The position numbers and the translations under genes are program-made. The notes below the pieces were generated by a model that did no database searches, was not told the origin of the DNA, and worked only from the letters and a program-made list of their open reading frames with translations. Of a stretch of 38,819 nt of DNA, positions 11,217-31,421 are shown piece after piece (the first letter of the stretch is position 1; each line of letters opens with the position of its first letter). This DNA is from Pelotomaculum isophthalicicum JI (GTDB lineage Bacteria; Bacillota; Desulfotomaculia; Desulfotomaculales; Pelotomaculaceae): contig NZ_JAKOAV010000032.1 of the NCBI RefSeq assembly GCF_029478095.1, forward strand, positions 1 to 38,819. Direction: 5' to 3'.

Positions 11217-11594
11217 ATGCTATCTGGTCTCTGGGCTTTGACTGTGGTATCTCTGGTCAACGGCCTCCTGCTGCTCGTCTCGTATATAGCTAATAATTCT
11301 TTTCCACAACCGTTATCTGAGGAAGAAGAGCTAAAGTACCTCCGCCTATTAAGCTGCGGTAACGAAGAAGCGCGCAATATCCTCGCCGAGCGGAATTTAA
11401 GACTAGTTGCACATGTTGTAAAAAAATTCGACAGCACAGGAGAAGATTCGGAAGACTTGATATCTATTGGTACAATCGGCTTAATTAAGGCGATTAACAC
11501 CTTCAACCCCGGTAAAGGGACCCGGCTGGCAACCTACGCGGCAAGATGTATCGAGAATGAAATGTTAATAACAAAGCCTAGCGGACGATATTAG
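11217..11594 (+). CDS. sigK: Sporulation sigma factor SigK, 5' half of a split gene
   Basis: 125 codons whose first 115 are a clear SigK: a hydrophobic pro-sequence (1-25), [17 protein letters not shown], the region 2 block [20 protein letters not shown], then [19 protein letters not shown] and [15 protein letters not shown]. Full-length SigK is about twice this size; regions 3 and 4 are missing. After Glu115 the frame reads ten unrelated residues to a TAG. The break lies at AATGA (11556-11560), which I remember as the crossover sequence of the B. subtilis skin element. SigK directs late mother-cell transcription, so the gene should need excision of the intervening DNA to work. The 3' half is not in the window. 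Confidence 0.88.
11553..11561 (+). other. Probable recombination junction of a skin-type element in sigK
   Basis: GAGAATGAA is the last sigK-like sequence; AATGA is at 11556-11560. The remains of a recombinase gene end 17 bp further on, facing sigK. A related GAGACTGAAA sits at 19011-19020 in the same position relative to the intact recombinase. Confidence 0.6.
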
Positions 11595-11803
11595 AAATAA
11601 TGGAACTATCTAACTGTTCCCGAGATTTGGCAACTATAATTCAAGTTAACCAAGTAATCCAAATTACCGGCCCACTGCTCCGATCGGCAACGCCATGCGG
11701 TTAGCGCCGGTAACAATGGCCGGCTGCTCAATCCATATTTGTCATGGCCTGCGCTTCTGGTACAATTACAATCTTTTAAGCCCTTTCGGTACCGCGCAGT
11801 CAC
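11578..11803 (-). pseudogene. Decayed 3' end of a large serine recombinase
   Basis: On the minus strand 11578-11637 reads [19 protein letters not shown] and a stop, aligning closely to the last residues of the intact recombinase at 19033 (IVAKLPEQIDSSVFSDIVR). Further upstream another stretch (near 11775-11790) reads KGLKD, like NGLKD of the intact protein, but in a different frame and about 100 bp too far away, so the copy is broken by a frameshift and an insertion. This is the recombinase end expected at a skin junction. The intact copy is 7.4 kb away. Confidence 0.7.
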
Positions 11804-11861
11804 GCCCTATTTTCCAACAGCTAATGTGGCAACTTGAGCCGGATAGCACCTTCACCAAACT

Positions 11862-13745
11862 CTAAGCAAAAACAGAATGAAATTCTTCCATATCATATCC
11901 CAGCTGACTTATGACCATTTTGTAATAAACTCCATGGTTTTTCATGAGTTCCTCGTGGGTTCCGCTCTCCAATATCTCGCCGCTACCAATGACCATTATT
12001 TTATCAGCATCACGAATTGTTGAAAGGCGATGTGCAATTAAAAAGCTGGTGCGATGCTCTATAAGCGTTAAAAAGGCATTTTGGATTTCCTTTTCGGTTT
12101 TTGTATCAACGCTACTTGTGGCCTCGTCTAAAATTAAAATCGGGGCATTGCATAGAATGGCCCGGGCAATCGCAAGCAATTGCCGCTGTCCCTCACTGAG
12201 ATTATCCATGCTGCCTGTTACAATAGTATCATAGCCCTTCGGCAGACGGGATATAAATTCATCTGCATGAGCCACTCTAGCCGCCTCTCTAACTTCCACA
12301 TCAGATGCGTGCGGCCTTGAATATCTGATATTTTCATATATAGTACCTGTAAAAAGGCAGGTATCCTGTAAAACAACAGAGAAACAGCTTCTCAGGCTTT
12401 TTCTGGTAATGTCTGTGATATCGGTATTGTCAATTAGGATGCTGCCCTGTTCCAATTCATAATAGCGGCTCAGAAGATTAACAATCGTTGTTTTCCCTGA
12501 TCCGGTCTCGCCAACCAATGCTACCATCTCCCCTGGTTGAACTTTAAAATTGATATTTTTCAATACAGGCTTGCCAGCATCGTAGGAAAACGAAACATTA
12601 CAGAACTCAACTTTTCCTTTCGGGTTATTCAACTCTTTTGCCCCAGCCGTATCCGGAACTTCCTCATCTTCATCCATTATTTCAAAAACCCTTTCCGCAC
12701 CAGCCAGAGCCGACTGAATGTTATTGAACATTCCGGCTATATTATTCAAAGGCTGCCCAAATTGCTTTGAATATGTGAGGAAGCTCACTACTACACCGAT
12801 GGTTATCATTCCCTTGGCTGATAGTATTCCTCCGGCACATGCTATAAAAGTGAAGCTTAAATTATTGATTACATTCATAAACGGCATCAAAAAACCCGCC
12901 CAAATTTGAGCTTTTGTGGAATAACTGCATAGCTCACAGTTTGTTTTTTTAAAATCCTCCAGGACATTTTGCTGCCGGTTGAACGCTTTTACCATTTTAA
13001 GCCCGACAATATTCTCTTCTATTACTCCGTTCAAAGCGCCCAACTTTTGCTGCTGGCCCCCAAAATACCTTCGACTGTGTCTGGCGATGACTTTTGTTAA
13101 TATAAGAAACAACGGAACAGATACCAATACAACAAGCGTTAAAATCGGACTTAAAACCAGCATCATGACAAACGCGCCTGTTATGGAAAAAACGCTGGCA
13201 ATAAGCTGTGTTGTCGTCTGGGAAATGGTATTACTGATATTATCAATATCATTTGTTATCCTGCTCATTGTATCCCCATGAGACCTTGTGTCGTAGAAGT
13301 TGAGCGGAACCCTCTGAAGCTTCGAAAAAAATTCAGCTCTCATATGCTTTACCAGTTCCTGTGTTACCTTAGCCATCAGCACACCGTTCAACGTATCAAT
13401 AATCCAGCTTGCCAGGTAGCATAAAACAAGAGCAATTAGTATTGTTCTTAAAAGAGAAAAATCAACCAAATTTGTATTTATGTTAAAGGTATTTATTACT
13501 CTACCCACTAATAAAGGCGTAATAATAGAAATCGCAGTAGATATTATAGTCAGAAGCGCCGCCAACAAAATGGATTTGCGCCTAATCTTGAAAATCTTAA
13601 CTAACCTGATCAGAGTTCCTTTTGTATCCCTGGGCTTTGCTGTTGGGTTAAAGCGCTGATGCCCGACGCTCCTCATCCTTCTCAGATCGGGCATGTTTTC
13701 ATAATTTTTATTTATTACGATATTCTTTTCATTCATATATATCAC
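11862..13745 (-). CDS. ABC exporter half-transporter, catalytic-site subunit
   Basis: A 627-aa protein with an N-terminal six-helix membrane domain (about 75-370) after a 65-residue basic cytoplasmic extension, and a C-terminal ATPase domain. It has Walker A GETGSGKTT, signature LSEGQ, Walker B LILDEATSSVD with the catalytic Glu, and H-loop His in LIAHRLS. It overlaps the upstream partner gene by 17 bp. With that partner, which lacks the catalytic residues, it should form a heterodimeric exporter of the BmrCD/LmrCD/TM287-288 kind, usually moving drugs or lipids outward. The substrate cannot be read from the sequence. Confidence 0.92.
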   Translation of the reverse strand: MIYMNEKNIVINKNYENMPDLRRMRSVGHQRFNPTAKPRDTKGTLIRLVKIFKIRRKSILLAALLTIISTAISIITPLLVGRVINTFNINTNLVDFSLLRTILIALVLCYLASWIIDTLNGVLMAKVTQELVKHMRAEFFSKLQRVPLNFYDTRSHGDTMSRITNDIDNISNTISQTTTQLIASVFSITGAFVMMLVLSPILTLVVLVSVPLFLILTKVIARHSRRYFGGQQQKLGALNGVIEENIVGLKMVKAFNRQQNVLEDFKKTNCELCSYSTKAQIWAGFLMPFMNVINNLSFTFIACAGGILSAKGMITIGVVVSFLTYSKQFGQPLNNIAGMFNNIQSALAGAERVFEIMDEDEEVPDTAGAKELNNPKGKVEFCNVSFSYDAGKPVLKNINFKVQPGEMVALVGETGSGKTTIVNLLSRYYELEQGSILIDNTDITDITRKSLRSCFSVVLQDTCLFTGTIYENIRYSRPHASDVEVREAARVAHADEFISRLPKGYDTIVTGSMDNLSEGQRQLLAIARAILCNAPILILDEATSSVDTKTEKEIQNAFLTLIEHRTSFLIAHRLSTIRDADKIMVIGSGEILESGTHEELMKNHGVYYKMVISQLGYDMEEFHSVFA

Positions 13746-15465
13746 CGTTCAAGTTTCCACCAATTTGGGACTCGAAAATTCCTCTATAGGTATCACATGA
13801 ATCAAGCAGTTCATTATGGCTGCCAAATCCGACCTTAACCCCGTTGTCAAGCACAAGGATTTTATCGGCAGACATTGCGGTTCCTATCCTTTGCGTTATC
13901 ATTATTATTGTTTTTTCAGTATCAGCAGTTTTCAAGCCTAGCCTGACTTTCGCTTCCGTGACTGCGTCAAGAGCGCTTGTGCAGTCATCCAAAATTAAAA
14001 CTGGCGACTTTTTTACCAACGCCCTTGCGATGGAAATGCGCTGCTTTTGGCCACCGGAAAGGTTTACTCCACCTCGTCCCAAAATACTTTCATATCGATT
14101 GGGCATCCTTTGAATAAATTCATCGGCCTGCGCAGCTAGGGCCGCTTTTATTATTTCTTCTTTTGAGGCATTCGGATTACCCCATGCTATATTTTCAAAT
14201 ACCGTCCCTGTAAACAACATGCTCTTTTGCGGAGCCAACGCTATATTATCCCTCAGCGTATTGCAATCGAGCATTTTAATATCATTGTTATTAAAGCAGA
14301 TCGCACCTTTTTCGACATCGTAAAAGCGCAAGCACAGCCAAGTAAGTGTTGTTTTTCCCGAACCAGTGGGGCCGATAATTGCCAGCGTCTCCCCCCTGTC
14401 AACCTTAAAAGTAAGATTGTTAATAGCCGGCATACCGCTTCCATTGGGATACGCAAAAGTCACGTCGTTAAATGAGAGCCCTTCGAAGTCGTATTTTATC
14501 GTTTGTTTAACGCCTTTAAAGTCCTCTTCACTGTTTAAAACTTCATTGATTCTTTCTGTAGATGCTTTTGTCCTTACAAAAATATTAAATATATTGGTGA
14601 TCATAATAAGAGACGCCATTATTTGAGTCATATAATTTATGAAAGCCGCCACCTTGCCAACTTCGATTTCACTGTTGCTGAACAGTACACTGCCGGTATA
14701 AAGGATCGAAGCAATTCCCAAACTGACGGTAAGTGACATAACGGGCGAAAAATATGCAATAACAAGCTGAGACGACGCACTTTTATCCGATAAATCCGCA
14801 TTGGCACCATCGAACTTTTCTTCCTCTTCTTCATACCTTCCAAAAGCCTTAACCAGTCTTATACCCAGCAGATATTCCTGAACAACCGTGTTGACTTTGT
14901 CAATGGCATACTGTACCTTTGCAAAACGGATATAGCTCATTTTCATACTGATTATAATGAAAGCTGAAACTATTACCACGACAAAAAACATGATAAAGCT
15001 CAGCTTCGGGCTCAGGATCACGGCAAGAATGATACTGCCTAAGCAGGTGACAGGTGCTTTAAAGAAAATCCTCATCAACCCGTTGATGAACTGTATTACC
15101 TGAGATGTGTCGTTTGTTAAACGGGTTATCAGCGAGCCGCTTTCGATTTTATCTGTGCTGACTTCAGAAAAATGAATTATTTTTGAAAATACGTCGCACC
15201 TTAAATCCACACCGAAATTTTGAGACACCTTACTTGATAGAATATTTCGGGCAGCCGCGAAGCACGCTCCAAACGCAGTTATCATAAGCATCAGCAGACC
15301 CAGCCTGATCACGATATCCACACGGCTGCTTTTCACGCCCTCGTCAATAATGCGCGCCATAATTGTCGGCTGCAGCAGATCGCACATTGCTTCAAAAAAT
15401 ACACAGCTGACAGCTATAATAAACGGAAATTTATATTTGTTAAAATAATAATTGTAAATATCCAT
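13729..15465 (-). CDS. ABC exporter half-transporter, degenerate-site subunit
   Basis: A 578-aa half-transporter: six membrane helices (about 10-305), then an ATPase domain with Walker A GPTGSGKTT (365-373), signature LSGGQ and Walker B LILDDCTSALD. Asp replaces the catalytic Glu, and the H-loop His is Gln (ITQRIG). These two changes are the hallmark of the non-hydrolysing site in heterodimeric exporters, so the protein needs the next gene product. It is the first gene of the pair. About 40 bp upstream lies the end of a short helical frame that may be the remnant of a regulator. Confidence 0.92.
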   Translation of the reverse strand: MDIYNYYFNKYKFPFIIAVSCVFFEAMCDLLQPTIMARIIDEGVKSSRVDIVIRLGLLMLMITAFGACFAAARNILSSKVSQNFGVDLRCDVFSKIIHFSEVSTDKIESGSLITRLTNDTSQVIQFINGLMRIFFKAPVTCLGSIILAVILSPKLSFIMFFVVVIVSAFIIISMKMSYIRFAKVQYAIDKVNTVVQEYLLGIRLVKAFGRYEEEEEKFDGANADLSDKSASSQLVIAYFSPVMSLTVSLGIASILYTGSVLFSNSEIEVGKVAAFINYMTQIMASLIMITNIFNIFVRTKASTERINEVLNSEEDFKGVKQTIKYDFEGLSFNDVTFAYPNGSGMPAINNLTFKVDRGETLAIIGPTGSGKTTLTWLCLRFYDVEKGAICFNNNDIKMLDCNTLRDNIALAPQKSMLFTGTVFENIAWGNPNASKEEIIKAALAAQADEFIQRMPNRYESILGRGGVNLSGGQKQRISIARALVKKSPVLILDDCTSALDAVTEAKVRLGLKTADTEKTIIMITQRIGTAMSADKILVLDNGVKVGFGSHNELLDSCDTYRGIFESQIGGNLNGDIYE

Positions 15466-15779
15466 AATTACTTCTGCTGCTTCTCCGCATAGATGTGTTT
15501 AACAGCTTCAGTTAAAAGCTCCGGCGAAACCAAGGACACCTATTAAGCCGATCCAGTTAACACGGCGGCGGCGTACCCACAGAACAATGGTCCAAGTGGC
15601 CGGAAAAGCTCCAACAATAGCTAGAGCGATGGTAAGGATTGGTTCTCCTGGTGAACCAGGCTCTCCAGAATGCGCTGCATACCTGCTTCATGGATCGTGC
15701 CGCCCGAGGACGGAACACCCTGACTTATATTTTTCCATTGTTGTTTTCTTAACACTTAGTTAAAGTATACGGCTGTTAA
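15466..15779 (-). pseudogene. Spacer with gene fragments upstream of the ABC operon
   Basis: No complete gene is visible. Two overlapping minus-strand frames have coding character. One (15508-15687) has no start codon and encodes two hydrophobic segments around WVRRRRVNWIGLIG. The other ends at about 15472 with SPELLTEAVKHIYAEKQQK, which could be the tail of a regulator. Both look like remnants. Confidence 0.3.
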
Positions 15780-17540
15780 TTAGTCCTCCTGACCGTGGAT
15801 ATATTTTTCTCCTCGCATAAAGGATGCCACCGCCGCCACCACAGACATAACTGCGGAAAAATAAAAGGTCAGGCGCATGCTGGCAATAAATGCCGGGGCA
15901 ATCAGAGAAGGAAAGAAATCTTTGCCGAGCACCAAGTTTTGGGTTGCTACCGGCAGATTCACCAATACCTGTTGAGGAATCAACTGCTCCATCGGATTGT
16001 AGCCCAAAAATGCGGCAAAAAGTGCCCCGGTAGGGGGTAAATTGGCGATTTGCCGGGCTTCTGCCACCGGAATGCCAGAACTGAGCAGCCCCTGGTACAT
16101 TATCGGGGGTAACTTGGCGGCCAACCCCATAATCACAATGGTAAAAAACAGGCTCATGCTTAAAAGTGCCCCGGTATTCTGAATCGTAGCCCGCATTCCC
16201 GAAGCCACTCCCCGGTATTCCGGGGGCACGGAGTTCATAATGGCTGTTGTGTTGGGAGCCGCAAACATACCCATGCCCAGACCCAATAGCAGCAGTATCA
16301 ACAAAAAGGTCAAATAGGGAAAGTTAGCCGGCAAAGTGGCCAAAAGTAAAAAGCCAGCCAGGGTAAGCAACATACCCCCGGTGGCAAAACCACGGGAGCC
16401 AAAACGGTCGGACAACCAGCCGCTCAAGGGTCCCATGAGGAAAAACCCAGCCATCATGGGAGTCATATATATCCCCGCCCAGAGAGGGGTATCCTCAAAA
16501 TTGTAACCATGCAGGGGCAGCCAGATGCCTTGCAACCAAATGACTAGCATGAACATCAGGCCGCCACGGGCCACAGAATATAGAAAGCCGCTTAAATTGC
16601 CCGCGGTAAATATGCGGATGCGAAAAAGGCTCAGGCGAAACATTGGCTCCGACACCTTTAGCTCCACCCAGAGAAAGACGGCTAATAGCACCAGCCCCGC
16701 CGCGATGCCGGCAATCACCAACGGGTTGCCCCAGCCCGTTTGGGACGTACCGTATGGCATAATGCCGTAGTTTAAGGCAATTAATAAAACGGTCAGCCCC
16801 ACGGCAAAGGTTGCGTTACCCCAAAGGTCTATTCTTTGCCTTTCATTTACGGCCCCGGTTTCCCTTAACTTAAGGTACGCCCACGCGGTACCCAAAATTC
16901 CCACAGGCACGCTGATTAAGAATACCAGCCGCCAGTGGAACACAGCCAGCACTCCTCCTCCCAAAAGGCCCAGCAGGGAGCCCCCCACGAAGGCTATTTG
17001 GTTTAAGCCCATGGCCATGCCCCTTTCCCACGGAGGAAAGGCATCGGTCAATATAGCGGTGCTATTGGAGAATAAAAACCCTGCCCCCACCCCCTGCAAC
17101 AGGCGAAAACCAATTAACTCCAAGGCCCCGGCGCTGCCCTGGCCTGGAGTTAAAAATAACAGGATGGAGCTCAGGGTAAATATGGCAAAGCCAAGATTAT
17201 AAAGCCGTACCCTTCCGAATATATCCGAAAGGCGACCAAAGGAGACCAGTAAAGTGGCCGTCACCACGGTATAGCCCATCAATACCCACAAGAGGTAAGA
17301 AATCTGGTCCGGGGCCAGGGGATTAATGTTTATGCCCCGAAAAATGGCTGGCAGGGAAATCATTATAATATTGGCATTAATGGAAGCCATTAGCATGCCC
17401 AGGGTGGTATTGGAGAGGGTTACCCACTTGTATTTATCGCTTTGCTGGGCCGCCCGGGTAACCGGCCTTTTTTCACCATTTACCCGGTTTTTGGCCGGTG
17501 AACTTTGAGAAAAGCTTGGATTAGTTTTTTTATCCGGCAA
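15780..17540 (-). CDS. MFS drug efflux transporter, DHA2 (EmrB/QacA-type, 14 helices)
   Basis: A 586-aa membrane protein with about 14 hydrophobic segments after a 40-residue polar N-terminus. It has motif A ([16 protein letters not shown], about 103-118) between helices 2 and 3, [25 protein letters not shown] of the 14-helix subfamily in helices 5-6, and a second motif A-like [11 protein letters not shown] in the C-terminal half. Members export drugs or dyes by proton exchange. It is 69 bp downstream of a MarR-type regulator on the same strand, a common arrangement where the regulator represses both genes until a ligand binds. The substrate is unknown. Confidence 0.93.
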
Positions 17541-17609
17541 AATGTTTACGCTCGTTTTGGCACCTTCTTTAGCTAGAAAATGATTGACGTAAATAGGTCA
17601 ATAAAAAGG

Positions 17610-18125
17610 TTATGGGTCGGGTTTACTGCAAAAGCCCTCGTCAGACGCCACCACCTGTTCTTTTAAGCCACTAATAATCCTCTCCAAAAAATCATTAATT
17701 TGCGTTAAATCCTCCGGTTCGGATAGTGCCTTTTCAAGACGCTCACAGCGAAACTTCAACACCTCTTTATAAACAGCCCGGCCTTTTTCTGTTAAATGCA
17801 AATACACCATCCGCCGGTCAGCCTGCTGGCGCACCCGCTGCACTAGTCCCTCTTTTTCCAAACTGTCCGCCAGCTCAGTGAGGCTGGCTGCAGAGATCAA
17901 CAGCCGGTTTTGCAGTTCCGTCATGTTGACATCCTGTCTGACATGCAAATAACGCATTATCCGGTAGCGGGAAAGGCTTAAACCCTTTCTCCCCAGGTAT
18001 AGCTGGGTAAGATATTTCAGTATCCTGTTGGCCCTGTCCAGATTCTCTTCAAACTGTTGTAAGTATTCAACTTTTGTTTGCATGATATCCCGCATATCCC
18101 GTATATTTTTTTCATCCATAGGCAA
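17610..18125 (-). CDS. MarR-family transcriptional regulator
   Basis: A 171-aa winged-helix protein. The DNA-binding part is about 60-130: SRYRIMRYLHVRQDVNMTELQNRLLISAASLTELADSLEKEGLVQRV, then the wing QQADRRMVYLHLTEKGRAVY with the Asp-Arg-Arg typical of MarR. Flanking helices form the dimer interface. The frame can begin at TTG 18125 or at the ATG two codons later (18119), which lies closer to the usual distance from GGGGAG. It precedes the efflux gene and probably represses it. No perfect palindrome was found in the first 60 bp upstream. Confidence 0.9.
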   Translation of the reverse strand: MPMDEKNIRDMRDIMQTKVEYLQQFEENLDRANRILKYLTQLYLGRKGLSLSRYRIMRYLHVRQDVNMTELQNRLLISAASLTELADSLEKEGLVQRVRQQADRRMVYLHLTEKGRAVYKEVLKFRCERLEKALSEPEDLTQINDFLERIISGLKEQVVASDEGFCSKPDP

Positions 18126-19032
18126 AACTCCCCACGGCCTTTTATTGTTTCAGTAAGTAATTTGTTAGCAATTTGTTTATCGTTATCTGAATGAGGCAAA
18201 TATCGCCTATATCGCCTATCATTCTTATGCTTTACACCGACAACATCGTGGCTGCTGCAAATCTGCTTGCCGGTGCTGCTAATTCGGTTTCGCATTATTA
18301 ATAAACTTGGTAACATGGAGGTCTCGATTAAAAAAATTTTCCATGGAGCAGTTAAGTGAGTAAGTTAAAAGAAGGCTTGGAGCCTAATTCTCCCCTAAAA
18401 CATAGGATACCTTAATGTTTGGATTGCTTATTATTAGCTTTCCTTAATATAAAGAAACTAAATTAATTATAGCACTAACAAAAATCTCAATCAATAATCG
18501 GGTAAGTCTCATGGCTTGTGACTTAACCCATACCCAGGTATTTAAGGCCCTGCAAGATATGCATAAACGCGGTGCATAGGTAGGTAGTTAAGGTTCACAT
18601 CATCTTTAGCCCTATGTTTTTCAATATTTTTAAACGTCTTTGGGTTATTACCGCCACGACCGCTTTGGTTGTTGTTCGGCCGATGGTCCATGTGCCTGTC
18701 CCGCTGCAGGTGGCTACCACGTTGAATGTGGCTTACGGGCCGTTTACACAGGCATTGTTAATTTCATCTACTGTTGGAATACTTACGTCCTAGCCATAGC
18801 TGTGAAGCTAGTATAACTACAGGTAGAAAGGCCACCACTTGGTGGTCCAAACCCCGCGGTTTCTATTTAAATTTTAAATATTTTATAGATACCTAATCTT
18901 ATCTAGGTGGTTTTCTATCTTAACAACGCTTTTCTACTGATCGCCCGAAAGCCGGATCTGTCAAATGATTCCTGAATATCGTAATTTACTAAATAACCCT
19001 GTTTGTTATTGAGACTGAAACAATGGTAAGTC
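18126..19032. other. Long spacer, no convincing gene; duplicated recombination flank at its right end
   Basis: 907 bp. A 59-codon plus-strand frame (18614-18793) encodes a partly hydrophobic peptide but lacks a ribosome binding site, and a short frame starts at 18511; I do not accept either as a gene. A small hairpin CCACC/GGTGG lies near 18833. The right end holds GAGACTGAAA (19011-19020) followed by a stretch closely similar to 11571-11640, the shared recombinase end. Confidence 0.5.
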
Positions 19033-20535
19033 CTAGCGTACGATATCAGAAAAAACGGAACTGTCTATTTGCTCCGGAAGTTTAGCAACTATAGTAACCT
19101 GCGTATCTTTTAAACCGTTCCTGCCCGGTTGGCCCCGGCCGGCTATAATTACCTGGGAAACCAAGGTTCTGATCAGGGCTTTTTTATCACTAAAGTCCAG
19201 GCTGTTTAACTTGGATAAAATCTGCCTTGAGATAAGCCTTAATTCTTCCAGGCCGGATATGTACCTGTAAGCCTCGCTTAAAACTGCTTCCAGTTCTTTT
19301 TTTCTGTTCTCAAGCCTTTCTTTCCTGCGCTTTAAATCGGTTAGCTTATTTTTAGTATTGGTGTCCAGTTCAACCAATCCTAAAGCAAGCGTGTCAAGAA
19401 TGGAGTTGCGTCCTTTTTCGACTCCTTTCAGGTGTTCTTCAATTCTATCCAACTCCTGCCTTAGCTCTTCCTCCCTGGGTTCTTCGCTGACCGCTTCTTT
19501 AGCTAGTGTGTCTGGATCATTCAGCCAGACTTGTACTTGCTCCCATACTGCGTTTTCGATTACTTCCGCTGGCAAGAACTTGGCAGGAACGCAACCCCTG
19601 CTTTTAGCCCCCTGACTGTTTTTATGGCAAGTATACCGGCGCTCCCTCTTATCCCACCAGTTTGTATAGACACCGGTCATAGTGTTACCGCACTCGGAAC
19701 AGGATATTAGCCCGGACAGCAGGTATTCATTTTTGCTCAATCCGGCCCAAAGCCGGCGAGCTTCCTTTAGTTTCTCCTGGGCTTTATTCCAAGTTTCACC
19801 GTTTACTATATCAGGCACTTGAATAGAAAATTCCTTATATCGCCAAAACCCCACATAAACAGGGTTTCTCAAAATTTGCCTGATTACGTTGCGGTGCCAC
19901 TTTCCCTTGCCTTTCCTTGTAGGTATTCCCATTTCATTCAACCTTCTGGCAACACCGTTCATGCCTATATCTTCGTAAACGAACCAATTGAAAATATTTA
20001 TCACAACTGGCGCTTCACTATCATTCACCGTAACTTTACCCGAATCCGGAGTATAATTATAGCCATAGTTGTAAAAACCTATTGGTACACCACCCTGCCT
20101 GGCTTTCTGATCTTTACCCCTTACCATCCTGTCCCTGATTTTTTCACGTTCGTATTCCGCTATAGCCCCCCGGACGGAATAAAACAACCTGCCCTCCGGA
20201 GTGTCCTTCCAGTCGAAATCAAGGAATTCAATCTTTACACCGGCCTTTTCAAATTCTTCTGTGAGAAGCAACTGGTGTGACAACTTTCGCGACAGCCGGT
20301 CCGGATCTCGGACTACAAGTAAGTCAACCTGATTGTTTCTGACGGCGCTGCGCAAAGCTGTAAGGCCGGGCCTGTCCATTGTGCTGCCGGATATACCTTC
20401 GTCGGCAAATTCGGTAATTACAGAAGCACCCAGGGCGGCGGCCCGGTTGCGGCAGGCTGCTTTCTGCTCCGCGAGAGAAAAGCCATGCCGCACCTGATCA
20501 TCCGTGCTTACTCTGACATAGATTGCTGCTTGCAT
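19033..20535 (-). CDS. Large serine recombinase (SpoIVCA/CisA-like)
   Basis: A 500-aa site-specific recombinase. The resolvase domain (1-150) has the nucleophile Ser10 in YVRVSTDDQ, then DEGISGSTMDRPGL, RDPDRLSRKL and AEYEREKIRDRM. The recombinase domain (about 160-265) has the GIPTRKGKGKWHRNVIRQILRNPVYVG block. A zinc ribbon follows (CSEC with a later C-x11-C pair), then a coiled coil (about 345-425) that controls integration and excision. The gene's 3' end lies 14 bp from a GAGACTGAAA site. Its relation to the broken copy facing sigK suggests it excises DNA from sigK in the mother cell, but it could instead act on a second element. Confidence 0.92.
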   Translation of the reverse strand: MQAAIYVRVSTDDQVRHGFSLAEQKAACRNRAAALGASVITEFADEGISGSTMDRPGLTALRSAVRNNQVDLLVVRDPDRLSRKLSHQLLLTEEFEKAGVKIEFLDFDWKDTPEGRLFYSVRGAIAEYEREKIRDRMVRGKDQKARQGGVPIGFYNYGYNYTPDSGKVTVNDSEAPVVINIFNWFVYEDIGMNGVARRLNEMGIPTRKGKGKWHRNVIRQILRNPVYVGFWRYKEFSIQVPDIVNGETWNKAQEKLKEARRLWAGLSKNEYLLSGLISCSECGNTMTGVYTNWWDKRERRYTCHKNSQGAKSRGCVPAKFLPAEVIENAVWEQVQVWLNDPDTLAKEAVSEEPREEELRQELDRIEEHLKGVEKGRNSILDTLALGLVELDTNTKNKLTDLKRRKERLENRKKELEAVLSEAYRYISGLEELRLISRQILSKLNSLDFSDKKALIRTLVSQVIIAGRGQPGRNGLKDTQVTIVAKLPEQIDSSVFSDIVR

Positions 20536-20663
20536 TTTTTCGCCTCCAGGACCTTCTTAGCAAGCAAGCGGTATGCTTCCTTTAAACCGCTGCTTCCATC
20601 TTTAGAATACACTATTTTTACTATTGGACGTTCTTTTTTTTCTTTGACATAAGCTCCGCTCAT
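20508..20663 (-). CDS. Small basic protein overlapping the recombinase start
   Basis: A 51-aa frame (ATG at 20663) that overlaps the first 28 bases of the recombinase gene in another frame. A ribosome binding site GGGAG lies about 9 nt upstream. The product is lysine-rich and helical (KEKKERPIVKIVYSKDGSSG, then LKEAYRLLAKKVLEAKK). Small genes just ahead of large serine recombinases are frequent; the overlap suggests coupled translation. The family is not recognised. Confidence 0.6.
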   Translation of the reverse strand: MSGAYVKEKKERPIVKIVYSKDGSSGLKEAYRLLAKKVLEAKKCKQQSMSE

Positions 20664-20727
20664 CCGTCATCACTCCCTATATAAAAGTTTACGCGGCTAC
20701 AGGTTTGTCTTATTGCTTGAAAGAAAG

Positions 20728-20776: not shown

Positions 20777-21652
20777 TTAGTTTGACTTCAAGTCAATGAA
20801 AACACTTTCAAATTCCTCAAAAGTTTTCGCTTTCACAGCCCGGCGCAGGATTTTCTTAAGTATGTCGCTGTTTCTGATTTCAGATAATCTTTCCTTTAGC
20901 CCAACAGGACGCTGCCCGGTATTCTCCTCAAGGGCTTCCATGATAGCCTCGACTATCCCTTCATCACGGCCTCTTGCTTCCCATTCTTCCCGGATGCCGT
21001 CAAAAAACGGGGAGTTTTCCATCTTGCTCACCTCCAGTATTTTTTGAACCAAACCCTTCTGGAGCCTTAACGCTGCTAAAACACCCAATGCAAGATAAAG
21101 AGTAGACCTTTCTTCTACTCCTTGCACCTCAGATTCGAACCGACTGGCACACTTCTCAAGCACTGCCTCTGGTGGCTCCTCCTGCCGCATCAGCGGAGCT
21201 AGTGGCAATAACCCCACCGGCCCCCGGTAAAGTAGATCCCGGCCGGCAATGTCTTGTAGGTTGATTTGTCGGTAGTTGAAATCAACTACTGTCAGGTCAA
21301 GGCATTCAAACATGTACCGTCCATCCTGCCGGCTGCCGCCGGTCAGGTTGATTACTACCGGGTAAACTGGTTTTTCGTGCCGGCAGTGGTGCATGGCCGT
21401 GTATTCCAGCAGCCTTCTCGCCATTTTTCGGTCCGGCCTGGCCTGAAATTCAACTAACATTAGATACTCGTAGCCGTCTTCACGTACTTTGACCAGCGCG
21501 TCAGAAGTGCGCTGCACGGCCACTGCTTCTTTGTCTTTGTCCTCGATTTGCTCCACTGCAACCGGTACACCCCTGACAAAGGAAGCGATCTTGTCCATGT
21601 ATCTCTCAGCCAGGGCTTTGATGATCAGGTCGTATTCGGCCAAAGGCATCAC
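20777..21652 (-). CDS. Rpn-family nuclease / YhgA-like putative transposase
   Basis: A 291-aa protein of the PD-(D/E)xK superfamily group known as Rpn or 'transposase YhgA-like'. Diagnostic parts are the N-terminal YDLIIKALAERYMDKIASF, the catalytic strand YEYLMLVEFQARPD (E-x-Q) at about 60-73, MARRLLEYTAMHH and VYPVVINLTGG. The C-terminal half is a helical region with the REEWEARGRDEGI segment often seen in these proteins. Rpn proteins nick DNA and raise recombination; they spread horizontally. It is a single-gene unit with its own terminator at 20728-20753. Confidence 0.8.
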   Translation of the reverse strand: MMPLAEYDLIIKALAERYMDKIASFVRGVPVAVEQIEDKDKEAVAVQRTSDALVKVREDGYEYLMLVEFQARPDRKMARRLLEYTAMHHCRHEKPVYPVVINLTGGSRQDGRYMFECLDLTVVDFNYRQINLQDIAGRDLLYRGPVGLLPLAPLMRQEEPPEAVLEKCASRFESEVQGVEERSTLYLALGVLAALRLQKGLVQKILEVSKMENSPFFDGIREEWEARGRDEGIVEAIMEALEENTGQRPVGLKERLSEIRNSDILKKILRRAVKAKTFEEFESVFIDLKSN

Positions 21653-21715: not shown

Positions 21716-22414
21716 TTAATTGCACGGATCCTCTGCTGTTCGGTGCCATTTGCCGTTAAGGTCATAATAATAAGTTAGTCCCTGTGAACACTTTTTTGAG
21801 TTGAGGTAAGAAAAGTCAACTCCTGGTGCCATCGTGTTTAAAAAGCTCATAAAGAGCGTTTTCACCTTACCGGTTGTTTCAACTACCACGGAAGGATAAT
21901 ACGGACTTTTTCTGTCCTGGTAGGTAGTTATCTTTGTTATACTTGATGCCCCGCCCTGATCGGCGCTCATCTCTTTTGGCTTATTCGCGTTGAAAAACAT
22001 TTCCGCCGCCAACTCTGCGTTGTTGCCTTCGTACTCAACCCAACGGTTAATGATTTTTACCGGACCACAACCGCAACTGCAGCAATACTTTTTATAACCG
22101 TTATTTTCGATGAGTTCTTTTTCTGTGCCTTCTCTTATGATGACATCGCCGCAATCAACGCAGCACGGGCTGCATGTTTCTACGCCACAACAAGTTCTAT
22201 AACTTCCGGGGTCAATAGACAGCCTGACATACCTGGTTGCGCTCAAAGCTCCGGCAACGGCCGCCGACTCACCGGCTGTTTTCAGCTTTTCGGAAGCTGC
22301 CGCGCGGCGCGTGTAGTCAACAGCAACGGCGGACACACCAATTAGAATCACTATCACAACGGCCATAATAGGAAGTATGCTTCCACGCTCGTCAGACAGA
22401 ATATTTTTAAACAT
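21716..22414 (-). CDS. TadG-like pseudopilin protein with a cysteine-rich insert
   Basis: A 232-aa protein. The N-terminus DERGSILPIMAVVIVILIGVSAVAVDYTRR and the following ASEKLKTAGESAAVAGAL are the Tad_N (TadG) pattern: a short cytoplasmic end, one membrane helix (about 12-32) and an extracytoplasmic domain. Between about 73 and 120 there is a cluster of cysteines (TCC, TCSPCCVDC, YCCSCGC), ten in fewer than fifty residues, with two more near the C-terminus. Such an insert is unusual for TadG and could bind metal or form disulfides. It is the last gene of a three-gene pseudopilin cluster. No TadA ATPase, TadB/C or prepilin peptidase is nearby. Confidence 0.7.
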   Translation of the reverse strand: MFKNILSDERGSILPIMAVVIVILIGVSAVAVDYTRRAAASEKLKTAGESAAVAGALSATRYVRLSIDPGSYRTCCGVETCSPCCVDCGDVIIREGTEKELIENNGYKKYCCSCGCGPVKIINRWVEYEGNNAELAAEMFFNANKPKEMSADQGGASSITKITTYQDRKSPYYPSVVVETTGKVKTLFMSFLNTMAPGVDFSYLNSKKCSQGLTYYYDLNGKWHRTAEDPCN

Positions 22415-22441
22415 AACTTGCTCCTTTCCTGGTTATCCACC

Positions 22442-22894
22442 TTAAGGGTTTTTCTTTGTAAAGTCCCACCACCCAAACGTGGCGTTTGCGTTGATATTAA
22501 TATCGCTAAGTGACGCCTGGCCTACCAGAGCAGGGAAAGTGTAGTTGAACAATTCGATCTGATATGTGCCGTAACACTTTTCAAATGTCCGGTTCCCGTC
22601 TACCTCCTGCTGGAAGGTTATTGTAAGGTTCTCCGGTTTTAACCCCCACAGCCAGGCGGCCTGGTAGGCTTTTGAGTATGCCATACTGGTGTTGCCGGTT
22701 ATAACTGCTTCTCTTGCACCTTCTCTCACCACTCTTTGTAAAGACACATAATCCCGGAACGCAAACGATAAAGTGACAGTTCCGAGGAACAGCACGATAA
22801 GGATAATGAAACAAAAAGCGAATTCCACCAAAATGACGCCCTTTTCGTCCTTAATTAAAGTATTTCTGGTTTCCCGACCGGAATCTGTACTCAC
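22442..22894 (-). CDS. TadE-like pseudopilin protein
   Basis: A 150-aa protein with the TadE pattern: KDEKGVILVEFAF followed by a hydrophobic helix (IILIVLFLGTVTLSFAF) and VSLQRVVREGAREAVITG. The Gly-(x)4-Glu layout resembles a prepilin cleavage site. It starts with GTG at 22894, inside the end of the previous gene (44-bp overlap), and is followed after 27 bp by the TadG-like gene. In Tad systems such proteins are minor pilins on the outer face of the membrane. Confidence 0.72.
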   Translation of the reverse strand: MSTDSGRETRNTLIKDEKGVILVEFAFCFIILIVLFLGTVTLSFAFRDYVSLQRVVREGAREAVITGNTSMAYSKAYQAAWLWGLKPENLTITFQQEVDGNRTFEKCYGTYQIELFNYTFPALVGQASLSDININANATFGWWDFTKKNP

Positions 22895-23285
22895 CGGTAG
22901 TCTGCGCCTCCCTTGAAATTGTTACTTTTCCTGTCCAATTGGAAGCTGAGGGGTTAAAGAGCTTTACCAGGCCCGGCATATATGTTTCCATATCGGCTTT
23001 AACAAGAGCACAGGCTACGTCTCCACTCCAATAAACAGAAACCTCTTTAGTGGATAACGCTATTCCAGTTTTATTGAGGTGATAATAAGCTATTTGATTA
23101 GCCTCGCTGTAATTTCCCGTTACCGCCAGTTGGTGCGCCGCAAGCCGGGCGGCCTGGCTGGTTTGTGTGGCGTTGTAAATCCACAGGCCGGTAATAAGTA
23201 ACATGAATACCATACCGATGAAAACCGGCCCTATAAAGCCGAGTTCCACCAATATCGACCCTCGCTCGTTTTTTATGATCTTCAA
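22851..23285 (-). CDS. TadE-like pseudopilin protein
   Basis: A 144-aa protein beginning with NERGSILVELGF and a membrane helix (VFIGMVFMLLITGLWIY, about 20-36), then SQAARLAAHQLAVTGNYSEA, the TadE-type layout. The ribosome binding region AGGGGGGGTG is strong. It is the first gene of the TadE-TadE-TadG cluster and lies downstream of the peptide cassette at 23472-23640. It shares little sequence with the second TadE protein beyond the N-terminal motif, so this is not a recent duplication. Confidence 0.72.
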   Translation of the reverse strand: MKIIKNERGSILVELGFIGPVFIGMVFMLLITGLWIYNATQTSQAARLAAHQLAVTGNYSEANQIAYYHLNKTGIALSTKEVSVYWSGDVACALVKADMETYMPGLVKLFNPSASNWTGKVTISREAQTTGEYRFRSGNQKYFN

Positions 23286-23684: not shown

Positions 23685-25610
23685 TTACCAGTGTTTTTCC
23701 GAATCTATAATCTCCCCGTGCAATTTATCGTCCTGAATTTCAGGTGGTTTATTGTGTATATACTCAATCGTGACGCTATCCACGTTATCGGGTGGGTAGA
23801 CATCCGTCCAGGAATCGTCAAAAGGCCAAGCCTGCGCCTCTACATTGTAATATCCCGGTACTGATGCTGTTATGTTATATTCGTACTCGTAGGGACTTCC
23901 TTTTGGAGGGAGGTCGAACGTTTTAACCACAGTACCACCATCTCCGCTGATTGTTAACCTTACCGGTAATGTTTCGGGCAGTTCATCTTTCCGGCTCACT
24001 ATCACCGTTGCCCACATATAGGCCGGGTTGTCCGTCGTACTCCAGGGATTCATGCCGGGGATTATCTGAACCTTGATGTCATAGTCCTTTCCCTTGACTG
24101 TGTAGGGTACTTCCATCCGGTTGTCGCCCGGCCAGTCACCACTTAGGAAGTTAACTTCATCCGGCGGGTTGGAGTGGTCCGGGTTGATCATGGCCGCAAC
24201 GCTGTATTCTCCTGCAAGGTCAGGAGTGAAACTGAACGGCAGCGTTTTTTGCTCACCTGCCGCCAAGTTTGTCACTATAGTGTTCTCCGCTAGTACCGTG
24301 CCGTCTAAACGTCTTGCACGCCATAATGTTTCAACGTTTGCAAAACCCATCTCGGAATCGTTCTTGACAGTTATTACACCGCTGGTTAACTGCCCGGGTT
24401 GGCCGGGTTCGGGCGAGAGGGTGATGTCGGTTACTTTAAGATTTTTTACTTCACCCTGCAACTCCGCGAACTTCGTATTATTGGTATTTGTCAACTCTGA
24501 CCAATCCATGTCATTCCATGCTTCTTGCGGCAGCGTATTTTCCAGTAAGGTATTTACGGCCGCACCTATCTTCACGGGACCGCCGTCAGATGTCCAATCG
24601 AAAGTTACTTCAAGGGTGTCTTCCGCTTTGTTGCCTTTGACGCTGTACCAATACACGTTGGTCAGATCCGGCACGGGTTGAAGGTTTTTTAGCTGCACCA
24701 GTTGACCGTTAATCGCAACGCCGAAGGGTACGGCGTAATCTTGAGACAGTTTTACCTTGCCGCCCTCCAGCACGTCAAACAGTTCCTTCGTCTTCGGGCT
24801 TGACAGGAAAGATGAGTCGGGCTTAGTCTTTAACACTACTTTCCCCGTGTATTTTTTACCTTTCTGTACTTTTTCGCCCTTGGGCACTCCGGGGTCGATG
24901 CTTTCCACGATGAAGTCGGGTATAACATCCCACTTCACTGTTATAGTTTCGTAATACACCCCGCCGAGATCACTACGGTTGTGCCAATGCCTCACCGTCC
25001 CGGTAAGTCCTGGTTCCGGTTCAGTCAGTACCTTGAAGTAGTCTCTTATCGTTACGTTGAAGTCGCCGCTTTTTAAGGCGGGATTGTTGGTAAAGCTGTC
25101 CTCCGCGCCCGGGTAACCGATGCGTTTGTTATAGGTTTGCAGGGTTTTTGCGATGATTGACCAGGTTTGATCGGAATAAGAATTTGAATTCTGCAACGCA
25201 CAATAATTTTCATACCATGGTTGGAATATCATATCCCGTTGTGCCGGGGCGATCTGGTCGGGCGCGTCCATTGGAAATAACTCGTTTGTGAAATCGCTCC
25301 CATCAATTGTCTTACCCAAATAGCGCGGCTCCTCACCGGGGTGGCCCAGGTCCATGCCGTTGGCTTTCTGCCAGTCGTTGCCGTCAGCGTCGGGCGGGGC
25401 GGGCTTCCAGTCGTTGCTGTCTATGTCCGTGGGCAGGCCGTAGACAATCTGGCCCCGGTCGAGGCGTGCTTGTAAGCCCCATCTTTCCGCAGGCAAGCCA
25501 TTAATCTGAAGCACTTTTTGCAGCTTGTCTTCACCGGCTTGCGCCTCCGAAAAGGAAAACCCTGCAAGCAGGGTTAGTAAAACAAATGCAGCTATTAATT
25601 TACGTAACAC
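23685..25610 (-). CDS. Large secreted protein with a CARDB-like domain
   Basis: A 641-aa exported protein. A signal peptide (1-25, MLRKLIAAFVLLTLLAGF then SEAQA) precedes a region of unknown fold with many Asp and Trp residues (about 40-390). From about 395 to 505 there is a CARDB/DUF11-like beta-sandwich: VTDITLSPEPGQPGQLTSGVI, VKNDSEMGFANV, LAAGEQKTLPFSFTPDLAGEYSVAAMINPDH. A second beta-sandwich follows. No cell-wall anchor is visible. It starts 15 bp after the stalk-domain gene, so the two are one operon, and is followed by the peptide cassette and TadE/TadG genes. It is probably a cell-surface or pilus-associated protein (inference). Confidence 0.6.
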   Translation of the reverse strand: MLRKLIAAFVLLTLLAGFSFSEAQAGEDKLQKVLQINGLPAERWGLQARLDRGQIVYGLPTDIDSNDWKPAPPDADGNDWQKANGMDLGHPGEEPRYLGKTIDGSDFTNELFPMDAPDQIAPAQRDMIFQPWYENYCALQNSNSYSDQTWSIIAKTLQTYNKRIGYPGAEDSFTNNPALKSGDFNVTIRDYFKVLTEPEPGLTGTVRHWHNRSDLGGVYYETITVKWDVIPDFIVESIDPGVPKGEKVQKGKKYTGKVVLKTKPDSSFLSSPKTKELFDVLEGGKVKLSQDYAVPFGVAINGQLVQLKNLQPVPDLTNVYWYSVKGNKAEDTLEVTFDWTSDGGPVKIGAAVNTLLENTLPQEAWNDMDWSELTNTNNTKFAELQGEVKNLKVTDITLSPEPGQPGQLTSGVITVKNDSEMGFANVETLWRARRLDGTVLAENTIVTNLAAGEQKTLPFSFTPDLAGEYSVAAMINPDHSNPPDEVNFLSGDWPGDNRMEVPYTVKGKDYDIKVQIIPGMNPWSTTDNPAYMWATVIVSRKDELPETLPVRLTISGDGGTVVKTFDLPPKGSPYEYEYNITASVPGYYNVEAQAWPFDDSWTDVYPPDNVDSVTIEYIHNKPPEIQDDKLHGEIIDSEKHW

Positions 25611-25625: not shown

Positions 25626-26627
25626 TTAATTCGAGATATTCACAATAACAAAACTAAGGCCCATGGAATGTACTGCTACCTCATGTCCGCCGACATTGAA
25701 ATATTTCAATGGTAGACGTTCGAGTCCGTCACTGCTCCTCGTCTTCTCGGCCACCTGCCAGGCATAGTCCATTATTTCCTGCACTTGGGCCGGTTGGTCG
25801 GGGAACCTCCAGTTCAGCACTTTCTCAATCGGTGAGAGATCCAGCTGCACGTTGCGAATATCAGGAAGGATTTGTGCCCAATCAACGCCAATAAGGATTT
25901 TACCGTTATTACTGTTGGCACAGTAAGAGAAAGAACTTTTATCTCTATTACTGTTCTTTTCTTCATTTGACAAGCTGTACGCCCACTCTGATCCACTCTT
26001 ATGTCCCGACACACCTAAAAGGTTGTCCAGAGCAACGATAATATCCGGTTTGCCCTGTGGATTGCTCTGTGTTACTTTGCTCACCAGGTAGTTCACCGCC
26101 GCGCTCACGTCCGGCTTCGGCTCGCCCGCCGGCCAGCATATCACCGTATGGGTCGCTTCGTCCCAATCCACCTGGTAGCCTAACCCCTCCGCGACGAACC
26201 GAGCCGGCAACATCGTGCGGCCGGGATCAACCAGCATGGGGGAAACGTCAATCGCCTTGGTTACACCATTGCTGACAACTTCGGCTTTTCCGATGGTCAT
26301 GTTCAGGGTTGCTTTAGCGCCTTTCAGCGTCGCGGTCTGGGTGGCGTTGTCCCAGGTGATGTTGCTGTTGTTCACGCCCAGGGCGTTGCCCAGGAACCTG
26401 ACAGGGACGAAAGTCCGGTCGTTCTGTATAAACGGTGCAACGTCCATCTTCACACCGGGCGTTTGGCCGTTCACCACATACTCGGATACGCCAATCTTGA
26501 ATACAACCGATTTAACCAGTTGGTTATCCTGATACACGTTTACCTGATCGGCTTTTGCCGGGTGGAGCCAGGGAACAACGATAACGGCTACCGCCAGAAA
26601 TAATATAAACGCAATAAACTTTTTCAT
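25626..26627 (-). CDS. Secreted stalk-domain (copper amine oxidase N-terminal-like) protein
   Basis: A 333-aa exported protein. Signal peptide 1-26 (cleavage after HPAKA). The stalk domain (about 50-165) is typical: VAPFIQNDRTFVPVRFLGNALG with ITWDNATQTATL, then SPMLVDPGRTMLPARFVAEGLG with VDWDEATHTVICW. These modules occur in many Clostridia wall or surface proteins and carry no amine oxidase activity. The C-terminal half (170-333) is not recognised. First gene of a two-gene operon with the 641-aa protein. Confidence 0.82.
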   Translation of the reverse strand: MKKFIAFILFLAVAVIVVPWLHPAKADQVNVYQDNQLVKSVVFKIGVSEYVVNGQTPGVKMDVAPFIQNDRTFVPVRFLGNALGVNNSNITWDNATQTATLKGAKATLNMTIGKAEVVSNGVTKAIDVSPMLVDPGRTMLPARFVAEGLGYQVDWDEATHTVICWPAGEPKPDVSAAVNYLVSKVTQSNPQGKPDIIVALDNLLGVSGHKSGSEWAYSLSNEEKNSNRDKSSFSYCANSNNGKILIGVDWAQILPDIRNVQLDLSPIEKVLNWRFPDQPAQVQEIMDYAWQVAEKTRSSDGLERLPLKYFNVGGHEVAVHSMGLSFVIVNISN

Positions 26628-29885: not shown

Positions 29886-30485
29886 CTAAATAGTCAGTAT
29901 TTTCACCATTTTATAAAAGCTGCTTTTTTTCATCCCCGTCCGGCGCATGGCTTCCACGGCAGTCATTTTCCCTTCCCTCCACTGCTGGCATATCTCCTGG
30001 AAGTTGGGGGGTATCACACAACCAGGCCGTCCAAGGCGCTTACCATTCGCCCTAGCTACCGATATTCCTTCCCGCTGGCGCTGCTTTATTTTCTTGCGCT
30101 CCTGCTCGGCCACATAAGAAAGCAGGCTCAAAAACTGATCCTCCATCAGCTTGCCGATGTCGCCCATCTCCCGAAACTTGCGGCTGTCGAAGATGTTTTC
30201 ATTCTCCAGCACCACTATATCAGCGCCTATCTCCCTAGTAATCTCCTTCCATTCCCTGATGATGCCGTCATAATCCCTACCAAGCCGGTCCAGAGCGTCC
30301 AGGTAAATCACGTCACCTCCCCGGACAATACGCTTCATGGCTTGGTACTCCGGCCTGTCGAAGTCCTTGCCGCTTGCCTTGTCGATGAAAAGAAACCGGT
30401 CCTCAATGCCCAGTTCACGCATTTTGAGGACTTGTCGTTCTTCATTCTGATCCTTGCTGCTCACACGAACGTAACCGATATTCAT
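29886..30485 (-). CDS. Small serine resolvase/invertase
   Basis: A 199-aa resolvase. Catalytic domain 1-140: nucleophile Ser9 in GYVRVSSKDQNEERQ, DKASGKDFDRPEY, YLDALDRLGRDYDG and AEQERKKIKQRQREGI. A C-terminal HTH (about 155-195: ICQQWREGKMTAVEAMRRTGMKKSSFYKM) binds the subsites. Length is standard for Tn3-type resolvases and plasmid dimer-resolution enzymes. The hairpin-rich stretch just downstream may be its target. Confidence 0.92.
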   Translation of the reverse strand: MNIGYVRVSSKDQNEERQVLKMRELGIEDRFLFIDKASGKDFDRPEYQAMKRIVRGGDVIYLDALDRLGRDYDGIIREWKEITREIGADIVVLENENIFDSRKFREMGDIGKLMEDQFLSLLSYVAEQERKKIKQRQREGISVARANGKRLGRPGCVIPPNFQEICQQWREGKMTAVEAMRRTGMKKSSFYKMVKILTI

Positions 30486-30655: not shown

Positions 30656-30898
30656 TTATTCACCTTTTAAAAACCTGTACATTTCTTCAACCGAAGCGAA
30701 TTTTAACTCCCTTGTAGCGATTTTCTGCGCTAGCCCAGCACCCACATTTCCTCTATGTTTGGCATGTATAACGCAGGTCCTTTTAATCCCATCGGGGCCA
30801 ACACCCTTCCAAACTGACGTTTTACCTTGTCTTTCCATCCCCAGCTTACGGCATATTTTTTCAACGTCGTCCCAAGTAAAGGTATATCCCCCATTAAT
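30656..30898 (-). CDS. HicA-like toxin candidate (probable ATT start)
   Basis: The frame ends at 30656. The first ATG is at 30838 (60 aa), but homology-like sequence continues upstream in frame (FTWDDVEKICRKLG) to a TGA, leaving ATT at 30898 as the likely start; it overlaps the stop of the previous gene as ATTAA and has GGAGAAGG 9 nt upstream. The product resembles HicA toxins: helix DVEKICRKLGMERQGKTSVW, strand ending in VIHAKHRG with a catalytic-type His, then GAGLAQKIATREL. HicA proteins are mRNA interferases. The preceding gene would be the antitoxin. The identification is moderate. Confidence 0.5.
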   Translation of the reverse strand: MNGGYTFTWDDVEKICRKLGMERQGKTSVWKGVGPDGIKRTCVIHAKHRGNVGAGLAQKIATRELKFASVEEMYRFLKGE

Positions 30899-31349
30899 TC
30901 ACCAATACCTTCTCCAGGTCTAAAACGCAGAAAAGCTTTTCCCTGTCACCCGCGCACCGGAGGACGCGCCTCAAATACCAGTAATGTCCGCGCCTGCCGC
31001 CAGACGGGCTTAAATAATAGGGCAAATCGGCAAAATAAACCTGAGCGTAATCAAGGATATTGTCAATAAAATCCTCAACCGCTTCCAGCCTGGTCGGGCC
31101 AACCCCGTAAACGCCGGTTTCCACGTTGTACAGAGAATAATTCTCGCTCTTGCCGCCCGGCTGGTCGATCCACTCGTAGGTAAATTTCCTGGTCTCGCAC
31201 AACTCATCGAGCAAATCAGTGGAAATAAGGGATACCGACGAACCGTCCTTGCGTTTTGCGTCGGCCAGGAGAAATTCTTTGCCGGTCGCAGCCTCACGCC
31301 TTAAAACCGTTAACCTGTTTTTCGCCTCATGAACCGGTACCTGGAGCAT
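30894..31349 (-). CDS. Phd-like antitoxin candidate
   Basis: A 151-aa protein, starting at ATG 31349 after AGGCGGTGAG. The N-terminus (VHEAKNRLTVLRREAATGKEFLLAD) has the layout of Phd/YefM-type antitoxins, while the remaining two thirds (for example ENYSLYNVETGVYGVGPTRLEAVEDFIDNILDYAQVYF) is a separate compact domain, reminiscent of HicB-like partners. Its stop overlaps the start of the HicA-like gene. Role as antitoxin is inferred from context. Confidence 0.45.
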   Translation of the reverse strand: MLQVPVHEAKNRLTVLRREAATGKEFLLADAKRKDGSSVSLISTDLLDELCETRKFTYEWIDQPGGKSENYSLYNVETGVYGVGPTRLEAVEDFIDNILDYAQVYFADLPYYLSPSGGRRGHYWYLRRVLRCAGDREKLFCVLDLEKVLVN

Positions 31350-31421
31350 AATCTCACCGCCTTTTAAATATCTCACACTTATTATACTAAAATATAGCCA
31401 TTATAGCTATATTACATTTTT

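Follow-up and report, generated by a model that had tools for sequence, protein, structure and literature searches.

In Pelotomaculum isophthalicicum JI, sigK breaks off after 115 codons, raising the question of whether the break marks a dead gene or a junction that is rejoined during sporulation. A first-pass annotation had favored the latter, a skin-type intervening element. We analyzed the whole stretch of DNA carrying the break (the window; 38,819 nucleotides, contig NZ_JAKOAV010000032.1, here C32) together with the rest of the assembly (GCF_029478095.1) and related genomes. By sequence, the results support an interruption of sigK by a skin-type element, and they suggest that this element is a composite.

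The two halves of sigK and their junction

11217..11561 (+): 5' half of sigK (codons 1-115), N-terminal pro-region included (TIGR02846, 8vjl, Ka/Ks)
11539..11580 (+): attL, 20-bp arms around GA at 11559-11560, with 15 bp in common with attR on contig C7

The 5' half sits in an open reading frame of 125 codons (11217-11594, +), residues 11-118 of which match positions 6-115 of the SigK model TIGR02846 (NCBIfam, E 1.7e-52), with a score under the cut-off because half of the protein is missing. The closest solved chain was SigK 8vjl, aligned with residues 3-118 of the frame (E 8.3e-46); since this alignment starts at residue 3, the N-terminal pro-region is present. The common coding sequence ends at AATGA (11556-11560), with protein similarity up to CIENE, and the window there reads CGAGAATGAAAT. 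The initial reading of 115 intact N-terminal residues with similarity ending at AATGA was thus right in both coordinates and residue count (TIGR02846, 8vjl).

A TIGR02846 search of the whole assembly (3.61 Mb, 93 contigs, 99.95% complete) returned one N-terminal half (the window), one C-terminal half on contig C7, one full-length SigE-type match on C51, and weaker matches. The sigK 3' half occupies C7 127902-128261 (-), with the model match at 127917-128273 (-) covering positions 108-226. We looked for the contrary picture, a complete second sigK and no matching 3' half, and did not find it: the assembly yielded no complete second copy, and no TIGR02846 match passed the SigK cut-off. The C51 gene was rejected as a second SigK since it is SigE-type, and an r4-only match on C36 was rejected as a sigK 3' half since its sequence is not that of SigK. 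The 3' half thus lies on C7 and not farther right within the window; it stands beside an element end and carries the same AATGA core. Both breaks share the 15 bp TATCGAGAATGAAAT (11549-11563 in the window), which include AATGA, and joining the halves at this common core gives one open frame encoding a 235-residue pro-SigK.

When joined, the element ends read TAGTCTTTGTTATCGAGAAT-GA-AATGTTAATAACAAAGCCTA, an inverted repeat with 15/20 positions matching and centered on the GA of AATGA. An equally good dyad arose in 4/20,000 shuffles of the arms. The dyads of seven other elements with both ends known scored 19, 16, 15, 14, 13, 13, and 10 of 20; that of locus L100 is weak (10/20), and that of genome G059 (12/20) is the best of 13 centers tried. 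With att rows aligned by the codon of Glu115, and leaving out a row from a truncated second sigK copy at locus L092, GA was present in 16/16 attL rows (15 distinct, because the rows of the window and of genome G015 are identical) and in 14/14 attR rows, while the adjacent bases varied. This comparison of relatives puts the crossover at GA.

On C7, 380 bp separate the crossover from the contig end. That end holds the 5' portion of a group II intron, beside attR, in an orientation matching the intron at the window end, and by eye this portion starts 77 bp from the crossover. The intron is multicopy, with at least 20 domain V matches (150/215 candidates scored) and 8 matches to its 5' part in the genome, five of them short, which explains the assembly break. 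There is thus good reason, short of full certainty, to place C32 and C7 as neighbors through this intron, which would make the insert 27.1 kb plus the intron.

Since the genome is a draft and C7 ends in a repeated intron, the halves could have been wrongly cut or be chimeric. We consider such an assembly artefact almost certainly not the explanation: the G015 assembly agrees with the window over 29,131 bp at 99.95%, across both the left junction and the inner att site described below, and the closed genome G010 has sigK split at the same position, as does Pelotomaculum terephthalicicum within one contig. G015, which also has an identical recombinase, is by sequence another assembly of a near-identical strain of the same species and not a second origin.

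Cassette A, element B, and the inner att site

11561..19016 (no strand): 7.4-kb cassette A, which runs from attL to the inner att site, with att-like sites and the 3' ends of recombinase genes at its borders
11578..11638 (-): remnant of a second recombinase gene, 61 bp of its 3' end (DNA comparison)
11862..13745 (-): ABC exporter subunit (PF00664, PF00005)
13729..15465 (-): ABC exporter subunit (PF00664, PF00005)
15780..17540 (-): MFS efflux-type transporter, DHA2-like (PF07690, 159.5 bits; TIGR00711, 176.8 bits, below the cut-off of 230.2)
17610..18125 (-): MarR-family regulator (PF01047)
18997..19038 (+): decayed inner att site (att2), GA at 19017-19018, beside the intact recombinase

The first-pass annotation had also described a recombinase end facing the break. 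Such an end is real, in the form of the 61-bp remnant, but the intact recombinase lies 7.4 kb away behind a decayed att site. An intact recombinase directly facing the break, as in most relatives, was therefore rejected for this locus, where only the remnant is found. Beyond the remnant, up to 11860, the originally flagged stretch gave no nameable match. At the DNA level, the remnant is 80% identical to the 3' end of the window recombinase and 75, 80, and 82% identical to the recombinases of G005, G020, and G023, so it would derive from another recombinase rather than a recent copy.

The left arm of att2 matches the G020 element end at 14/20 positions and the right arm at 6/20. Its dyad score of 7/20 falls inside the shuffle means of other sites (5.0-7.5), decay here being a statement about symmetry and similarity only. 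Searching the window for inner att sites with a pattern taken from att2 itself returned 19003-19020 as an exact match and one match with 3 mismatches at the contig end (0.29 expected).

The simplest history would be two sigK-specific elements in tandem, A, which has lost its recombinase, and B. Cassette A could instead be foreign DNA, never an element, whose insertion beside the recombinase came with duplication of the left end; the recombinase trace is only 61 bp, and the right end has only a short stretch in common with the C7 element end. The left-end copies, however, differ as much (80% identity) as recombinases of different genus-level groups do, which argues against a recent duplication, and in att2 a right-end arm meets a left end, as expected of a tandem. 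We regard the foreign-DNA history as unlikely, though it keeps an appreciable share of our confidence. Under the tandem history, the stack should leave as one unit since att2 has lost its symmetry. Recombination between an active att2 and attR would remove the recombinase and leave sigK broken, so decay of att2 would be favored.

Element B comprises the recombinase operon (next section) and the following features.

20777..21652 (-): Rpn/YhgA-like protein (weak Pfam and NCBIfam matches), 85% identical to part of the G020 element
21716..23285 (-): three Tad-like pilus genes (PF07811 twice; PF13400 below cut-off)
23685..25610 (-): Athe_2463-domain / CARDB-like surface protein
25626..26627 (-): copper amine oxidase N-terminal domain protein (PF07833)
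29886..30485 (-): small resolvase/invertase-type serine recombinase (PF00239)
30894..31376 (-): PHD-like antitoxin-family protein (PF12910)
31422..32728 (-): two proteins of the replication-relaxation type (PF13814 in the second), with 76% and 75% identity to those of G020
32791..34722 (-): membrane protein, T4SS-like at best (PF18895, 25.6 bits, below the cut-off of 26.6)
35366..37288 (-): TraG/VirD4-type coupling ATPase (PF02534, PF12696), 49% identical to G020
37664..38659 (-): replication-initiation-like protein, Rep (PF13730, phrog_270), 35% identical to G020
38693..38776 (-): group II intron domain V at the contig end (RF00029, RF02001)

A coupling protein (PF02534) and a replication-relaxation protein (PF13814) both scored over their cut-offs, a combination expected of an integrative and conjugative element. 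Pfam gave no VirB4-type name among the 21 window proteins, a search limited to the predicted ORFs of this contig, and named no phage structural domain among the 21 window proteins right of sigK; the PHROGs search covered 2 of the 21 and the small ORF described below. The gene at 29886-30485 is a second recombinase within element B, small and resolvase-type. A similar element is present in G020, a member of another genus-level group. There, HEPN and nucleotidyltransferase genes come after the sigK 3' half, and from then on the order is the same as in the window: Rep (35% identity), TraG (49%), Replic_Relax (75%) and its neighbor (76%), an HTH protein (54%), and the Rpn-like protein (85%). The G020 recombinase is 82% identical to that of the window.

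The recombinase operon and selection on sigK

19033..20535 (-): large serine recombinase, 500 aa, Ser10 conserved (PF00239, PF07508, PF13408)
20508..20663 (-): candidate recombination directionality factor, a 51-aa ORF with a 28-nt overlap of the recombinase start in another frame
20686..20712 (-): putative operon promoter, SpoIIID-like TAAGACAAAC at 20703-20712 and -10-like CGTAAACT at 20686-20693

The predicted recombinase has Resolvase, Recombinase, and zinc ribbon domains and appears intact, so that the element holds the recombinase gene expected of the skin type. It is the sole close match of its kind in its own genome at E<=1e-60 and is 61-82% identical to four recombinases adjoining sigK halves. 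A scan of named genomes gave 24 recombinase loci, 19 of which have a sigK half, with the recombinase beside the 5' half in 12 and beside the 3' half in 7. The distance from recombinase end to GA is less than about 100 bp in most loci, 7.4 kb in the window species, and 1.4 kb in L092 and L094.

Compared with P. terephthalicicum JT, Ka/Ks was 0.034 for the sigK 5' half, 0.054 for the 3' half, and 0.089 for the recombinase, indicating purifying selection. Selection on both halves means that the gene is in use, and since the partner species also has a split sigK, use is indicated in both. These values bear on the possibility that an element landed in sigK and cannot leave, with SigK lost in the lineage. 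The recombinase lies 7.4 kb from the break and att2, the att site on its own side, is damaged, as such a dead gene might show; yet both halves and the recombinase are under strong purifying selection, the outer att dyad is kept, and SpoIIID and SigE are present. We consider a dead gene highly improbable. The earlier preference for a developmental switch is therefore upheld by purifying selection, the att dyad, and a recombinase gene that appears intact, with excision itself the predicted step.

At 19/25 loci, a small ORF in the same alternative frame runs into the recombinase start (by 22-28 nt at 16 loci and by 4 nt at 3); at one more locus it lies in the third frame, and at five the scan did not find it. 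With tblastn at 1e-6, it was recovered in 12/22 stretches, including L097, which the scan had missed. Outside the overlap, differences in six pairs fell mostly at third codon positions (6/9/22, 6/4/16, 4/7/16, 2/2/5, 17/12/28, and 14/12/27 at first/second/third positions). No Pfam or NCBIfam family matched the small ORF, and a PHROG search gave a weak match for one of four homologues, to a PHROG without an assigned function. We read this ORF as a candidate, and probably the, directionality factor of this recombinase group.

Upstream of recombinase operons, we found TAGGACAATC or similar followed by a GCGTAGAAT-like block. We call the first motif SpoIIID-like by reference to WWRRACARNY, which we take to be the SpoIIID consensus. 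It was present at 10 of 20 related, sigK-linked loci (five loci not tied to sigK being excluded) against 1.6 expected, although one of the ten, L098, has it located elsewhere. Motif and -10-like block occurred together at 6/20 loci against 0.06 expected, with the -10 pattern and spacing picked after viewing the loci. The motif is absent from the other 10/20 sigK-linked loci, including G020. A SpoIIID gene is present in the P. isophthalicicum genome, and the accessible text of PMC517825 gives spoIVCA as a SpoIIID target in B. subtilis.

Split sigK genes across the order

Among 25 genomes of the family, sigK was intact in 15, split in 7, and without an assignable match in 3. A close recombinase (E<=1e-60) was found in 7/7 split-sigK genomes, in G005 as a piece at a contig end. 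At the same threshold, the only hit among the 15 intact-sigK genomes was a weaker relative in G012, and there was none in the 3 genomes without a sigK assignment. Of 113 genomes in the order, at least about 23 have the two halves apart, and at least 6 more have a short 5' half only; these counts were read from open-frame lengths, most without a base-level check. The halves lie 2.9-78.6 kb apart where they share a contig, or up to 100.7 kb if G079 is counted, whose 3' half matched only in part. An intact SigK-like gene apparently accompanies a split or partial one in G050, G054, G056, G057, G086, G087, and G094. Locus L092 (Desulforamulus aeronauticus) has a truncated second sigK fragment (16552-16734, approximately residues 29-101) upstream of its split gene.

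Recombinase and host gene are out of step. The SigK halves are 97 and 95% identical to those of P. terephthalicicum while the recombinase is only 64% identical; against G020, the corresponding values are 83 and 78% for the halves and 82% for the recombinase. The recombinase tree groups the window with SL1-B34.2 and UBA3102. The elements therefore appear to move. In G059, a 4,902-bp element forms its own contig, C11, between C10 and C12, and all three are cut exactly at GA. Because assemblers break where reads disagree, this hints, without proving it, that the sequenced DNA contained the element in both excised and integrated form. The C11 element (L123) carries an AMP-binding enzyme. In the closed genome G010, a 4.2-kb sigK element (in L075) encodes a DNA methylase and a TdeIII-type restriction endonuclease (2254-4326), a restriction-modification pair that may travel in sigK.

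Relatives of the recombinase also occur beside other genes. In L104 (Desulfofundulus australicus, 10890-11501) and L106 (Moorella mulderi, 11637-12146), one lies directly before the later part of a LigD primase-polymerase, matched by TIGR02776 from position 412 or 433 and by PF21686 from 82 or 105; in both loci, then, a related element may interrupt ligD. Near 11504 in L105 (Thermoactinomyces sp.), a distant relative is followed, by eye, by an apparent part of a non-sigK gene.

Mobility raises the possibility that this is an integrative, conjugative-type element that merely has sigK as its home and is excised only for transfer, free of developmental control. Its TraG/VirD4-type ATPase and replication-relaxation proteins fit such a life, as do recombinases that do not follow host kinship. 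However, half of the loci have a SpoIIID-like site before the recombinase operon, and the sigK 3' half is under selection, which requires regular excision in sporulating cells. We consider an element serving transfer alone improbable.

A composite skin-type element excised as one unit in sporulation, rebuilding sigK, is in our judgment the probable explanation of the locus as a whole. It would interrupt sigK at the GA of codon Glu115. During sporulation, and presumably in the mother cell, the large serine recombinase would recombine attL with attR at GA, with the 51-aa overlapping protein probably acting as directionality factor. Excision would rebuild the full pro-SigK gene and release the insert as a circle. 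The insert would consist of cassette A with its efflux genes, element B with the recombinase and conjugation-type genes, and a group II intron near the right end, and since the inner junction lacks att symmetry, about 27 kb plus the intron would come out in one step. As judged from anatomy, recurrence, and selection, a developmental switch is well backed.

The first-pass annotation had drawn parallels with both B. subtilis and C. difficile, of which the former holds. In the accessible text of PMC10745906, the B. subtilis skin splits sigK at AATGA, whereas according to that of PMC5025042 the C. difficile element uses another site in the opposite orientation; B. subtilis is therefore the fitting comparison. 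Like the window element, skin has an AATGA site (as published; the B. subtilis codon lies outside our alignment), a recombinase convergent with the 5' half, and a pro-SigK. It also has a small gene overlapping the recombinase start, and SpoIIID acts on spoIVCA (accessible text of PMC6957869 and PMC517825); this gene encodes the 64-aa directionality factor Skr and shares 101 nt with spoIVCA, read in a +1 frame (same text of PMC6957869). The window element differs from skin in its conjugation-type genes, its two stacked elements, its group II intron, and the lack of any phage structural domain named by Pfam in the 21 window proteins. The skinCd element of Clostridioides difficile (CD1231, CD1234) is alike in combining a large serine recombinase with a directionality factor (a candidate here), in its att dyads, and in rebuilding sigK on excision, as we propose here; it is unlike in that SigK there has no pro-sequence (PMC5025042, accessible text), while a pro-region is present here. 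In the Bacillus cereus group, as far as the accessible text of PMC10745906 describes, the recombinase adjoins the 5' fragment and AATGA is used by two lineages, but the cargo is other and the elements are apparently single.

Stacking of cassettes at one site by a large serine recombinase also recalls the staphylococcal cassette chromosome (SCC). The best NCBIfam match of the window recombinase was CcrB, at 144.3 bits against a cut-off of 900, and membership in SCC was rejected because the score is below this curated cut-off. SCC leaves its target gene working, in contrast to the window element, where the target is broken until excision.

The composite structure goes beyond the first reading, and such a kind of sigK element was not found described in the literature searched, as far as its accessible texts go. 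That search returned no paper combining Pelotomaculum with sigK and none combining sigK, Desulfotomaculum, sporulation, and intervening; most subscription journals were outside its reach. We propose, tentatively and with slightly less than half our confidence, that sigK in this order is an accretion site in which conjugation-type elements and cassettes of cargo pile up, and where selection destroys inner att sites because partial excision would trap sigK in pieces, making the whole stack one developmental excision unit. In L092, a short att-like repeat adjoins the recombinase at 1.4 kb from attL; it is weak (29 bp, E 0.04), and no clear repeat was seen beside the recombinase in its sister L094, so stacking is not claimed as general.

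To our knowledge, the sigK elements described so far come mainly from Bacillus and C. difficile, each as a single element. Here, a host order has many different elements in the same gene and, where checked, at the same dinucleotide. Their cargo varies widely, from a methylase with a TdeIII-type enzyme (G010) or an AMP-binding enzyme (G059) to the efflux and conjugation-type genes of the window. The order thus offers recombinases matched with their att sites and candidate directionality factors, and the stacked case predicts that the inner site is dead and the outer sites are alive. Together, these elements would provide a natural experiment in how a mobile element turns into a developmental switch that its host needs.
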